Assembly (NCBI RefSeq): GCF_029213205.1
Contig: NZ_JARGNH010000021.1
Coordinates: 1 to 58,690, forward strand
DNA from: Pseudooceanicola sp.
GTDB taxonomy: Bacteria > Pseudomonadota > Alphaproteobacteria > Rhodobacterales > Rhodobacteraceae
Reading direction: 5' to 3'
Length of the DNA stretch: 58,690 nucleotides
The translations under genes and the position numbers were made by a program. Positions 2,282 through 8,929 of the stretch are shown in pieces (position 1 is the first letter of the stretch; each line of letters starts with the position of its first letter). Under the pieces are notes generated by a model. That model had not been told where the DNA came from. It saw only the letters and a list, made by a program, of their open reading frames with translations, and searched no databases.

Positions 2282-2321
2282 TCTACATCTGACGCCGCAG
2301 CGCGGCATTGATCTACGTCAG
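2282..2321 (-). promoter_or_regulatory. FNR/CRP-type box and -10 element of phaC
   Basis: Read on the minus strand, CTGACGTAGATCAA (2321-2308) is followed after exactly 20 nt by TGTAGA (2287-2282). The box is close to the FNR/FnrL/DNR consensus TTGAT-N4-ATCAA. Its placement fits a class II activated promoter, with the ATG about 48 nt beyond the -10 element. The same box, spacing and hexamer occur upstream of atpD (8890-8929). Oxygen-responsive control is inferred from the box type only. Confidence 0.6.
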
Positions 2322-2361
2322 TTCTGTGCGAGGGTGGTGACGCAGCCGCATTAAATTAGCG

Positions 2362-3201
2362 TTACCTTGCTGACCGGGCCGAGGCCGCGCCGGTGCCAAG
2401 TTCGATGATCTCGGCCGTGATCGCCTCCTGCCGGACCCGGTGCAAGGTGGCCTTGAAGGTATCAAGTTCGCGCGCGATCTGGTTGCCGGCCGCGGTCATC
2501 GCTTCCATCCGCGCCTCGTTCTCGGCGGCGAAAGCATGCAATGCGGCCTTGCAGACCTGCGCGTTGAAATAGTCCTGCCCGAGGGCGGCGATCAGGGCGT
2601 CACCGGGCTGTTGCGTCAGCGGCGGCTGCGTCGTGACGGCGGGCAGATCCGCGAGGTCGAGGGGGAACAGCCGGTGCCGGACAAGCGTGGGACGGCCCGA
2701 GGCCCAGCCGGTGTAAAGGACATCCAACCGGTCAATCCGGTCCGCTTGCACGGCGTCGTAGATCGCCGTGGTGATGTGATCGGCCAGTCGCGGGATACCG
2801 AGCGTGTGCGAGGGAAGCGGGGCGGTCCAGTGCGGCGTGATTTCCCGCGCGGCGGCAAGCGCGAGGCCACGGGTGCCAATCAGGAAAAGCGTCGCCAGAT
2901 CGAGCTCTGCACCAATGTTGTCGAGGACCCTCTCGCTGAACGCGCCAGCGAACCCCTGTTCGGCGCAAAAGACCAGCAGGCCGGGCTTGCAAGCTGTCGT
3001 GGGCTTTGGCGCCTCCGCCAGATTGCCGAGGACGCTTGCCATACCCGAGGCGATGGTGGCGGCATAGCTGTCGACCGCCTGCACCTGCGTCCGTGCCACA
3101 TGCGCCCGCGCGGCGGCGATGCCCTTCATCGCGTTCACCACCGCGCCAAGTTGGCGAATGCCTTCGATCCGGGCGCTGATATCGGCCAGCCGGTCGGTCA
3201 T
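2362..3201 (-). CDS. atpG: N-type ATPase F1 subunit gamma
   Basis: Central-stalk subunit that couples rotation of the c-ring to catalysis in the alpha3beta3 head. The 279 residues show the usual gamma pattern: an N-terminal helix beginning with a [13 protein letters not shown] start and a C-terminal helix with the conserved run of [12 protein letters not shown]. Its ATG overlaps the atpA stop codon (ATGA), so it is translationally coupled and is the last gene of the operon. Gamma of N-type ATPases diverges from that of the housekeeping F-type enzyme, and the operon composition supports the N-type assignment. No separate delta gene follows or precedes it. Confidence 0.9.
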
Positions 3202-4742
3202 CGGGTCACCGGGTCAGGGGCCACCGGGGCTGGGGCAGCCGGGCCGTCTTCCAGCGCCTGCGCCAGCGCGGTCAACGCCACCATCAGCCGTGCGCGGGTC
3301 GCGTCGTCCAACTTGCCGCTCTCGGCGAGGGCGCCAAGGCTGGCCCGGTCCAGAGCCGCGGGCAGCGCGGCGCGAAAGGCCGCGACACTGGGCAGGGGCA
3401 GCCTGTCCAGCAGCCCGGTCTGAACCGCCAGCATCAAGGCGATTTCGTCCGACAACCGGAACGGCCGATGCTGGCTCTGGCGCAGCGCCTCGCGGATCCG
3501 CGCACCGCGTGTCAATTGCTTGCGCACCCGGCCATCGGGCATGCCACCGAACCGGGTAAAGACCTCGAGTTCCAGGAACTGCGCATAATCCAGCCGCAAG
3601 GTTCCCGCCGCCGCGCGCAGCACCGGCGCCTGGGTCTTGCCGCCGACACGGCTGACCGACAGGCCCACATCCACGGCCGGTTTCTGGCCCTGGTGGAACA
3701 GGCCGGCGTCCAGCACGATCTGCCCGTCGGTGATCGAGATCAGGTTGGTCGGGATATAGGCCGACAGGTTGCCTGAATCCGTTTCTGCGATTGGCAGAGC
3801 CGTCAAAGACCCACCGCCGTGGTCCGCGGACAATTTGGCGGCGCGTTCCAGCAGGCGGGCATGGATGTAAAACACATCGCCCGGATAGGCCTCGCGCCCC
3901 GGCGACTGGCGGGTCAGCAGCGCAATCTCGCGGTGCGTGGCGGCGTGTTTGGACAGGTCGTCGATCACGATCAGCACGTGCTGGCCGGTGTCGCGGAAAT
4001 GTTCGGCCATGGTCATGCCGGCATAGGGCGCGATCCATTGCAGGCCCGGTGCCTCGGACGATCCGGCGACGACGACGATACAGCGCGCGAAGTTGCCATG
4101 TGTCTGCAGGGAATCGATGGCGCGGCGGACCGAAGAGGTCTTTTGTCCCACCGCCACATAGACGCAGATCATGTCGCTCTGCGCTTGCGCGATGATCGCG
4201 TCCACAGCCAGCGTGGTCTTGCCGGTGGAATGATCGCCGACGATCAGCTCTCGCTGGCCGCGACCAAGAGCAAACAGCGTGTCGATCACCACCACCCCGG
4301 TCTGCACCGGCTCGGTCACCAGATCACGCTCGATGATGACAGGGGCGGGGCGTTCGATCGGCAGATGTGCCTCGGCCTCGATCGGCCCGTTGCCGTCAAG
4401 CGGGCGGCCCAGGGGATCGACGACACGGCCCAGCAATGCGTCGCCCACCGGCACGTTGACAACCTCGCCGGTGCCGAAAACCATATCCCCGGCCTCGACG
4501 TCCGAGGCAGCATCCAGAAGCACACAGCCGATCAGATCAGGATCAAGCACCCGGGCAAACCCGACCTGGCCGCCCTGAAAGCGCAGCACCTCGTCCAGCC
4601 GCACGTCGCGCAGACCCGAGATCATCGCGACTCCATCGCCGACCTCTTCGACCCGGCCCCGATGCTCGGTGCGCGGACCGAAACTGGCATCTTCGAGCGC
4701 CGCGATGGCGGCCGCGGGCCAATCCGGGGTGTCAGGCGGCAT
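3198..4742 (-). CDS. atpA: N-type ATPase F1 subunit alpha
   Basis: Non-catalytic nucleotide-binding subunit of the F1 head. The 514-residue protein has the beta-barrel N-domain, a P-loop reading GDHSTGKTT near residue 170 (housekeeping alpha usually has GDRQTGKT), the VYVAVGQK segment, the [11 protein letters not shown]alker B region and the alpha signature around [22 protein letters not shown]. Its start overlaps the end of atpF by 11 nt, and its stop overlaps the start of atpG. The N-terminus is somewhat truncated relative to housekeeping alpha, in the region that normally contacts delta; this fits an enzyme whose delta function is carried elsewhere. Confidence 0.93.
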
Positions 4743-6988: not shown

Positions 6989-7392
6989 CGGAACTCTCCA
7001 CTCAGGGCACCTTCGCCCAGGCGGCTGACCATGCGCCGGATCGCGTTCAGCTGCAGCTGCACGCTCTCGACCCGGTTTACCCGTTCCGCATCGGCGTCGG
7101 ATTGGAACCGGGTCAGCACATCCTGGTCCAGCGTGGCCAGATCATCGCCCGGCACGGCCTCGCGTGTGGCGATCGAGATGGTGTCGTTCAGCACCGTCAG
7201 GACACCGCCACGGACGGCGCAAAAGCCTTCGGTGCGATCCTGGCGCCAATTGACGATCGAGATCTCCAACGCTGTCAGAAACGGCGCATGCCCCTGCATG
7301 ATGCCGAAACTGCCGCTGAAATCCTCGGCACGAAGAGACTCGACCTGCCGATCGAGCACGATGGACAGGGGCGTGACGATGTGCAGCCTCAC
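6985..7392 (-). CDS. atpC: N-type ATPase F1 subunit epsilon
   Basis: Rotor subunit that binds gamma and can inhibit ATP hydrolysis. I choose the GTG at 7392, which overlaps the atpD stop as GTGA and gives 135 residues starting (M)[13 protein letters not shown]; longer in-frame extensions lie within atpD. The N-terminal beta-sandwich contains [19 protein letters not shown], the epsilon signature, followed by a short C-terminal helical domain. Its stop overlaps atpQ. Confidence 0.9.
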
Positions 7393-8840
7393 GCGGCCAC
7401 CTCCGCGGCGCTCGATGTCGCGGCGTCCTTGGCCCGGGCGTCTTCCAACGTGCCGACCATATAGAGCGAGGATTCGGCCCAATCGTCGGCCTCGCCTGCC
7501 AGGATGGCACGGCACCCAGCCAGCGTGTCGGCCAACGAGACGCTGGCGCCGGGCGTGCCGGTAAAGGCCTCAGTCACCATGAATGGCTGGGTCAGGAACC
7601 GCTGTAACCGTCGGGCGCGTTTGACGATCAGGCGGTCATCGACGCCCAGTTCCTCAACCCCAAGCAGCGAGATGATATCGGACAGCTCACGAAAACGGGC
7701 CAGCGTTCGGCGGACAGCCTCGGCCGTCTGGTAATGCCGCTCCCCAACCACCTGCGGGTCCAACAGAATCGAGGACGAGGCCAACGGGTCGATCGCCGGG
7801 TAGAACCCTTCGGCTGCCTGCGCGCGGCTGAGCACGATGACGCAATCCATGTGGCTTGAGATTGTGGTGACGGCCGGATCGGTGAAATCGTCCGCCGGGA
7901 CATAGACCGCCTGGATCGCCGTGACCGAGGTGCCCGCGACCGAGGCGATGCGCTCCTGCAACCCGGCAACCTCGGTCGCCAAAGTGGGTTGATATCCGAC
8001 GCGTGAGGGCAATCGGCCCAGAAGGCTCGACACCTCGGCCCCGGCCTGAACAAAGCGAAAGACGTTGTCCATCAGCAGCAGCACATTCTTGTGCCTCTGG
8101 TCCCGGAAATATTCCGAGATCGTGAGCGCCGTCATCGGCGCCCGCCAGCGCGCACCGGGGGGTTCGCTCATCTGGCCATAGACCAGAACAGTGCGTTCCA
8201 GGACCCCCGATCCCTGCATTTCAGTCAGCAGTTCGTGGCCCTCGTGGGACCGCTCGCCGACCCCGGCAAACACCGAGATGCCTTCGTAATTATCGACCAT
8301 GGCGCGGATCAACTCCATCACCAACACGGTCTTGCCGACCCCGGCGCCGCCGAACATCGCCGCCTTGCCGCCCTGCGCCATCGGGGTCAGCAGGTCGATC
8401 ACCTTGATCCCGGTTTCGAACACCTCGGTGGTGCGGGTCTGCTCCTTTAGCGTCGGCGGAGCGGTGTGGATCGCCCGGCGCGGGGTGTCGGCGGGCAGGG
8501 CGGGGCCATTGTCCTGCGTCTGGCCGACCACGTCCAGCAACCGCCCAAGCACCGCATCGCCCACCGGCACGGTCACCGGCCCATCCAGCGCCCGCACCGG
8601 CACCCCGCGCGCCAGCCCTGCGGTGGATTGAAACGCGACGGCGCGCACTGTTGTCAGGTCAAGATGGCTGTGAACCTCAAGGATCAGCGGCCCAGGCCTG
8701 TCCCAGTCCACCACAAGGCCCGAATTGATGGCGGGCAGGTCGTCATCGGCAAAGACCACATCCACCACCGCGCCCCTGACAGCATCGACAAGGCCCTCAC
8801 AGGATGGCACGGTCGCCGGATCGGTGTCAGATTGTTGCAT
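7389..8840 (-). CDS. atpD: N-type ATPase F1 subunit beta (catalytic)
   Basis: Catalytic nucleotide-binding subunit, first gene of the operon. The start at 8840 ([16 protein letters not shown], 483 residues) is chosen because an AAGGA ribosome site lies about 10 nt upstream; an in-frame ATG 45 nt earlier has no comparable site. The P-loop is [10 protein letters not shown], the catalytic glutamate region is GVGERSHEG, Walker B is [12 protein letters not shown], and the beta signature reads [10 protein letters not shown]. In DNVFRF the first residues replace the usual DNIFRF. An FNR-type promoter identical in layout to that of phaC lies upstream. Confidence 0.94.
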
Positions 8841-8889
8841 GTGGTCAAGGTCCTTCGAACCGACCGAGTCGCCAGAGTCTTCCACCCTT

Positions 8890-8929
8890 TCTACACCCTG
8901 TCTTGCGCCTTTGCATTGATCTGCGTCAG
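8890..8929 (-). promoter_or_regulatory. FNR/CRP-type box and -10 element of the atp operon
   Basis: On the minus strand, CTGACGCAGATCAA (8929-8916) is followed after exactly 20 nt by TGTAGA (8895-8890), with the atpD ATG about 50 nt further. Box, spacer length and hexamer match the phaC promoter at 2282-2321, with one base different in the box, while the spacers otherwise differ. This argues for a shared activator rather than a recent copy of the whole upstream region. Confidence 0.62.

Follow-up and report, generated by a model that had tools for sequence, protein, structure and literature searches.

N-type rotary ATPases (N-ATPases) occur in many bacteria alongside the normal ATP synthase, and their cellular functions have been called largely unexplored (PMC5376962). 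The question of when and why such an additional enzyme is made is raised by a 58,690-nt stretch of Pseudooceanicola sp. DNA (contig NZ_JARGNH010000021.1; the whole stretch is referred to below as the window), which carries an N-ATPase operon beginning with atpD and, after it, phaC, the gene for a polyhydroxyalkanoate (PHA) synthase. An initial annotation of the window had suggested that twin FNR-type promoters serve phaC and the N-ATPase operon, and this suggestion is upheld by the recurrence of the FNR-type box, by the class II geometry, and by the family of boxes found at fnrL and ccoN. The two elements are very probably class II FNR-dependent promoters that would be bound by FnrL at low oxygen.

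Twin promoter elements in the window

The element CTGACGYAGATCAA-N20-TGTAGA is found on the minus strand upstream of phaC (positions 2282-2321) and upstream of the N-ATPase gene atpD (8890-8929). Its two instances, CTGACGTAGATCAA-N20-TGTAGA at 2321-2282 and CTGACGCAGATCAA-N20-TGTAGA at 8929-8890, fit with zero mismatches, exactly as had been annotated. The match is unique: no third copy of the 40-nt element was found in the whole window with up to 3 mismatches tolerated, and 100 dinucleotide shuffles of the window gave 0 matches. Of the two, the phaC element falls between the atpG stop at 2362 and the phaC ATG at 2234. From box end to start codon, phaC has 73 nt and atpD (ATG at 8840) 75 nt. 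The 20-nt spacers do differ: beyond the TGC with which both begin, they are identical at 4 of 17 positions, which is the chance level. Both boxes score 9/10 against the FNR consensus TTGAY-N4-RTCAA.

Two further features were seen near the phaC start. A weaker second FNR-like site, TAGAGGCGGATCAA (8/10), lies at 2272-2285 and overlaps the likely phaC -10 element. The phaC spacer carries a short GC-rich hairpin-like word, GCCGCGCTGCGGC (2294-2306), and the identical word is present in the phaC spacer of locus L145.

Recurrence of the box upstream of N-type atpD genes

The N-ATPase marker AtpR was found in 52 of the 295 genomes of the family, from which 53 loci were taken, and 80 named loci were added via the c subunit, these being the best 80 of at least 550 matches and biased to near relatives. 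Together with the window this gave 134 loci, and removal of 12 loci with missing or truncated atpD and of 3 duplicates left 119 distinct ones; kinship among them was treated by removing near-duplicates and nothing further. A box was scored when it matched TTGAY-N4-RTCAA at 9/10 or better within 300 nt of the atpD start, with start codons assigned by rule.

The box is conserved across many proteobacteria. Its conservation in orthologous loci, on which the initial annotation had let its proposal depend, is evident from 48 of the 119 distinct loci (24/53 from the family and 24/66 named ones), whereas 50 shuffled sets averaged 2.96 loci, with 10 at most. Permuted palindromes reached 8 loci at most, apart from two close variants of the motif, with 35 and 30 loci, which are not independent controls because they also match TTGAT-N4-ATCAA. 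In genomes of the same set, the same scan was positive for 29/30 ccoN genes and for 1/30 genes atpH of the F-type enzyme, each group comprising the best-scoring 30 loci from the 52 and 51 genomes, respectively, with a match. A coding-window control, in which 2.3% of 2160 windows reached a score of at least 9, is superseded by the shuffles, the palindromes, and the gene controls.

These results bear on the notion that the two elements resemble each other by chance and have no function. The pair was picked after a reading of the whole window, and single FNR-like sites are common (85 with at most 2 mismatches, 50 expected), but conservation, the TA spacing described below, and the controls all speak against mere coincidence, which has a negligible probability and was discarded on the strength of the shuffles, the permuted palindromes, and the F-type controls.

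Some observations on the locus set stand apart from the box. A gene cluster of CRP/FNR-type regulators recurs in the N-ATPase loci L101, L111, L117, L139, and L144; the sole member scanned, that of L117 (2456-3220, just upstream of atpD), matches PF13545 and PF00027. Locus L190 bears the label Microbacterium, apparently by a binning error, and duplicates L185, an N-ATPase locus of Novosphingobium capsulatum.

Promoter geometry

Geometry was assessed in 37 of the 48 boxed atpD sites, namely those whose box ends 45-140 nt before the start codon. A TA dinucleotide follows the box at 21 nt in 9 cases, at 22 nt in 9, and at 23 nt in 7, together 25 of 37 distinct loci, while offsets 5 to 20 combined account for 9 and the triplets of offsets starting at positions 5-18 for 0-4 of the 37 loci each. 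Since TA played no part in the choice of sites, its spacing constitutes independent evidence, and the box is thereby centred at about -41.5, where class II promoters have it. Mean pairwise identity between loci is 0.27-0.30 in the upstream flank and the spacer, so that the sequence around the box is unrelated while the box itself is prominent; the half sites, which were selected for matching, give 0.73-0.84. TGC is frequent right after the box (T in 17, G in 24, and C in 18 of the 37).

The -10 element is likely better read as box-N22-TAGARR, which would be the class II FNR layout, with TAGAGG in the phaC promoter and TAGAAA in that of atpD. The hexamer TGTAGA at 20 nt, noted in the initial annotation as shared by both elements, does not hold up as a -10 element: the conserved TA sits at 21-23 nt, and L142 and L191 are among the relatives that do not keep the hexamer. 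The proposed layout resembles the class II FNR promoter of Escherichia coli in its 14-bp box, a gap of approximately 22 nt, and a -10-like hexamer, and differs from it in that the TAGARR of the window lacks the final T and the first half site is CTGAC.

For FNR, a box centred near -41.5 occupies the classic activating position. This location, the recurrence of the geometry at both atpD and phaC, and the activation of the phbC-fabI genes discussed below make it very unlikely that FNR represses, or acts oppositely at, one of the two promoters, even though an exact box precedes a ctaD-like gene in the genome and FnrL of Rhodobacter sphaeroides does repress some targets, e.g., coxI and fnrL (Dufour 2010, PMC2908626).

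The phaC promoter and gene neighbourhood in relatives

The phaC survey covered 120 loci, i.e., the 119 and L131, in which atpD is truncated. A phaC homologue is present within the stretch taken in 20 of these N-ATPase loci, 17 of them with a readable 5' end, and its placement relative to the N-ATPase genes varies (downstream, divergent, or upstream). Boxes of at least 9/10 precede 12 of the 17 readable phaC genes, and all 12 have TA at 21-22 nt. The divergent atpD and phaC genes of L100, L138, and L194 have a single palindromic box between them, which was counted for both; TA is found 22 nt from the shared box on both sides in L100 and L194 and on the phaC side only in L138. Judging from this spacing, the single FNR box of L100 and L194 could be a two-way promoter that drives both atpD and phaC.

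The arrangement in the window, where phaC follows atpG on the same strand and a search of positions 2100-2700 found no minus-strand terminator-like site, would also suit expression of phaC chiefly by read-through from the N-ATPase operon, in which case there would be one switch and the own box of phaC would add little. This is quite improbable given that the box with the 21-22 nt spacing is retained where phaC is divergent from atpD (L100, L124, L138, L146, and L194, with the qualification that the box is common to both genes in L100, L138, and L194) and in L129, where phaC is upstream of the N-ATPase genes. A promoter of its own for phaC is the preferred reading.

The neighbourhood itself recurs. 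In the family set, the N-ATPase loci were compared with control loci of the F-type enzyme from the same genomes, of which 51 had an F-type match and 40 were used; the stretches were mostly ∼14 kb and were cut at differing distances from the operon. Genes for PhaC were found in 11/54 N-type versus 0/40 F-type loci, ackA in 8/54 versus 0/40, and fabI in 4/54 versus 0/40. Matches of the pta type (9/54 versus 6/40) provide no clean marker and are uninformative alone. Neighbour cluster 0, and by look some others too, consists of antisense open reading frames (ORFs) of atp genes and was disregarded. The N-ATPase genes of L142 (Pseudorhodobacter ferrugineus) are followed by phaC, fabI, maoC-pta, and ackA in that order, and in both L142 and L145 phaC is followed by fabI-, pta-, and ackA-like genes, of which Pfam confirms pta and ackA of L142 and fabI of L145. 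The gene set with phaC is divergent in L146 (Burkholderia lata) and upstream in L181 and L185. The atpD box is present in 18 of 27 loci with any of these genes versus 27 of 72 other non-distant loci (Fisher p 0.013, relatedness ignored).

The box family and FNR-type regulators of the genome

The exact sequence family YTGACGYNGATCAA comprises both window boxes along with those of fnrL and ccoN. In the 3.69-Mb genome this family has 6 exact places and 60 with at most 1 mismatch. Besides the two window sites, the exact places are one 18 nt upstream of fnrL, one between ccoN and a uspA-like gene (genes named by reading), one preceding a ctaD-like gene of an aa3 oxidase by 100 nt (L034 1501-1514; likewise named by reading), which is possibly a repression site, and one within an ORF. 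The reversed pattern, used as a control, has 2 places and is probably too kind a control, as CTAG-like words should be rare in this genome. A looser pattern gave 137 palindromic sites and is too loose to name a regulon.

The FnrL protein has four N-terminal Cys residues (DCGDCPIRHRAVCARC) and an ETVSR recognition helix of the E-x-x-S-R type, both read by eye and judged against the cluster-binding and helix residues of FNR. Its best sequence relatives in the PDB are FixK2 and FNR-type regulators. PF13545 (HTH_Crp_2) scores above cut-off at six places in the genome: FnrL, four other CRP/FNR-like proteins, which include L003 (HTVSR helix) and L007 (ENLSR helix), and L008, which reads by eye as a GntR-type protein.

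Evidence against the assignment and the choice of regulator

A number of observations weigh against the assignment of FnrL-bound promoters to the two genes. No box of 9/10 is present in 71 of the 119 upstream regions of N-type atpD, and two close relatives, L107 and L118, lack a strong atpD box. Among the named loci, sorted by record title, the box is found in 21/46 alpha- and betaproteobacterial or unplaced proteobacterial ones versus only 3/20 others. Of the 37 boxed atpD loci used for geometry, 12 have no TA at 21-23 nt; 5 of the 17 readable phaC genes (L163, L176, L181, L185, and L187) have no box; and the phaC boxes of L100, L138, and L194 are not independent, being the same sites as the atpD boxes. 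In the window, the final T of TATAAT is missing from both -10 elements, and the first T of the consensus is absent from both boxes, which have C at position 1. R. sphaeroides presumably has an N-type operon as well. The table of FnrL targets from chromatin immunoprecipitation in that organism includes no rotary ATPase operon in the part of the paper cited (PMC2908626). The C at position 1, on the other hand, is a known FnrL variant and counts in favour: it is usual in the FnrL sites of Rhodobacter capsulatus, which accept it in 34% (PMC4634722). Finally, the box does not name its regulator, because FnrL and Dnr of Dinoroseobacter shibae act at common sites (PMC5398030).

Such sharing of sites, along with the presence of CRP/FNR-like proteins beside FnrL (PF13545 matches such as L003 and L007), leaves some room for boxes of the CRP/FNR family that serve mainly a Dnr/NnrR-type regulator responding to NO or nitrite, so that the pair would be switched on during denitrification rather than by low oxygen as such. 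That is unlikely: the same box family is found at fnrL and ccoN, classic FnrL targets, and the activator shown at phbC-fabI of R. sphaeroides is FnrL (PMC2908626). We infer that FnrL is the probable binder, that it would activate rather than repress, and that phaC and the N-ATPase operon would be induced jointly at low oxygen.

Genes of the locus

The gene order atpDCQRBEFAG (Table 1; atpB placed by position and reading) is that of N-ATPase operons, and the operon carries AtpR, which identifies the enzyme as an N-ATPase. The NCBIfam alternate-F1F0 models match the beta, alpha, gamma, c, b, and epsilon subunits, above cut-off for epsilon only. The two carboxylates of the c subunit, E27 and E60, are invariant across 19 aligned sequences. 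An ordinary F-type ATPase is encoded in the genome as well (delta subunit at G000:C42:184010-184522).

The phaC product has both the PhaC_N and PHBC_N domains (Pfam) and is called class I-like because its score against TIGR01838, 525 bits, is below the cut-off of 622.65. Three further phaC homologues (54, 51, and 40% identity) are present in the genome, and none of them has an upstream box of at least 9/10 (best scores 7, 8, and 7); unlike them, the phaC of this locus is placed by its box in what would be the low-oxygen programme.

The contig ends 455 nt past phaC, and the minus-strand stretch after the phaC stop looks, by eye, like a fabI gene that is cut off after its first part. Positions 1-455 resemble by eye a transposase fragment on the opposite strand; Pfam found nothing in the ORF at 102-551. 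The contig end may be a mobile element that separated phaC from fabI. Upstream of the N-ATPase operon, two adjacent ORFs (385 and 225 aa) at 9191-10890 gave no Pfam match.

Table 1. Promoter elements and genes of the phaC and N-ATPase region of the window
Feature	Position	Strand	Basis or remark
phaC, class I-like PHA synthase, 592 aa	456..2234	-	PF07167 and PF12551 above cut-off; TIGR01838 best NCBIfam match
Likely -10 of phaC, TAGAGG	2280..2285	-	22 nt past box; overlaps TGTAGA 2282-2287
FNR-type box of phaC, CTGACGTAGATCAA	2308..2321	-	9/10 versus TTGAYNNNNRTCAA
atpG, gamma subunit	2362..3201	-	TIGR01146 best match, below cut-off
atpA, alpha subunit	3198..4742	-	NF009884 above cut-off
atpF, b subunit	4732..5493	-	TIGR03321 best match, below cut-off
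atpE, c subunit, two carboxylates (E27, E60), ETTAIY	5471..5716	-	NCBIfam c model matched below cut-off
atpB, a subunit	5716..6417	-	Position and translation read, without family scan; orthologous tblastn matches in N-ATPase loci
atpR, N-ATPase marker subunit	6414..6710	-	PF12966, 49.1 bits (cut-off 26)
atpQ	6704..6988	-	TIGR02230 and PF09527 above cut-off
atpC, epsilon subunit	6985..7416	-	TIGR03166 above cut-off
atpD, N-type beta subunit	7389..8840	-	TIGR03305, 610 bits (below cut-off 752); TIGR01039, 608 bits
Likely -10 of N-ATPase operon, TAGAAA	8888..8893	-	22 nt past box; overlaps TGTAGA 8890-8895
FNR-type box of N-ATPase operon, CTGACGCAGATCAA	8916..8929	-	9/10 versus TTGAY-N4-RTCAA

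Relation to known systems

The closest parallel for phaC is RSP1257-4 (phbC-fabI) of R. sphaeroides, where FnrL binds at a CRP/FNR box (TTGAGcaagATCAA) and activates a PHA synthase gene (Dufour 2010, PMC2908626). The window differs in its box, CTGACGTAGATCAA, and in the position of phaC behind an N-ATPase operon whose promoter matches that of phaC. No report of FNR control of an N-ATPase was found in the parts of the open literature searched, and a term search of two papers on Burkholderia cenocepacia at low oxygen found no N-ATPase. The initial annotation regarded the link between redox state, PHA, and an additional ATPase as little described, which fails for the PHA synthase, given the activation of phbC-fabI; for the N-ATPase, the search found no precedent. 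What would be new here is FNR-type control of the N-ATPase, FNR control of a PHA synthase being already known.

A low-oxygen response of an N-ATPase has been seen in Nitrospira marina, where the N-type subunits rise at low O2, a rise that the authors call curious (PMC8115632); that observation comes from the proteome only and from another phylum, and the cited passages name no regulator or promoter. In D. shibae, it is the F-type ATPase operon that is repressed via FnrL and DnrD. The N-ATPases of Burkholderia pseudomallei (PMC5376962) and Futiania mangrovii (PMC9927469) resemble that of the window in the gene order atpDCQRBEFAG, the presence of AtpR, two c-subunit carboxylates, and an ordinary F-type enzyme alongside; the cited passages describe no regulation of them. 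The c subunit of the window has ETTAIY, compared with the sodium motif ESTxxY, and the N-type c ring of B. pseudomallei is mainly proton binding.

A possible role for N-type ATPases in oxygen limitation

The proposed sequence of events starts at low oxygen: a dimer of an FNR protein, most likely the [4Fe-4S] regulator FnrL with its cluster intact, would occupy the box near -41.5 and recruit RNA polymerase to the TAGARR element 22 nt downstream. The genes atpDCQRBEFAG would then be transcribed from one such site and the PHA synthase gene from the second, in the gap between atpG and phaC. As gene content suggests, PHA synthesis could absorb reducing power once respiration is limited, the pta-ackA genes, located beside phaC in some relatives, could provide ATP from acetyl phosphate, and the N-ATPase could hydrolyse this ATP and pump ions, so that the membrane would stay charged.

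A broader and more tentative proposal, which may well prove wrong, is that the N-ATPases of alpha- and betaproteobacteria, together with phaC-fabI-pta-ackA, form an FNR-controlled module for oxygen limitation, with the N-ATPase as a dedicated ATP-driven ion pump. The recurrent neighbourhood of PHA synthase and acetate kinase genes suggests that stored polymer, substrate-level ATP, and ion pumping may be parts of one response, and the recurrent FNR promoter makes the purpose of the N-ATPase directly testable at the oxic-anoxic shift. The findings thus suggest that the additional N-type ATPase is a low-oxygen machine, and the module, if true, would be the first general physiological role for this widespread class of enzymes.

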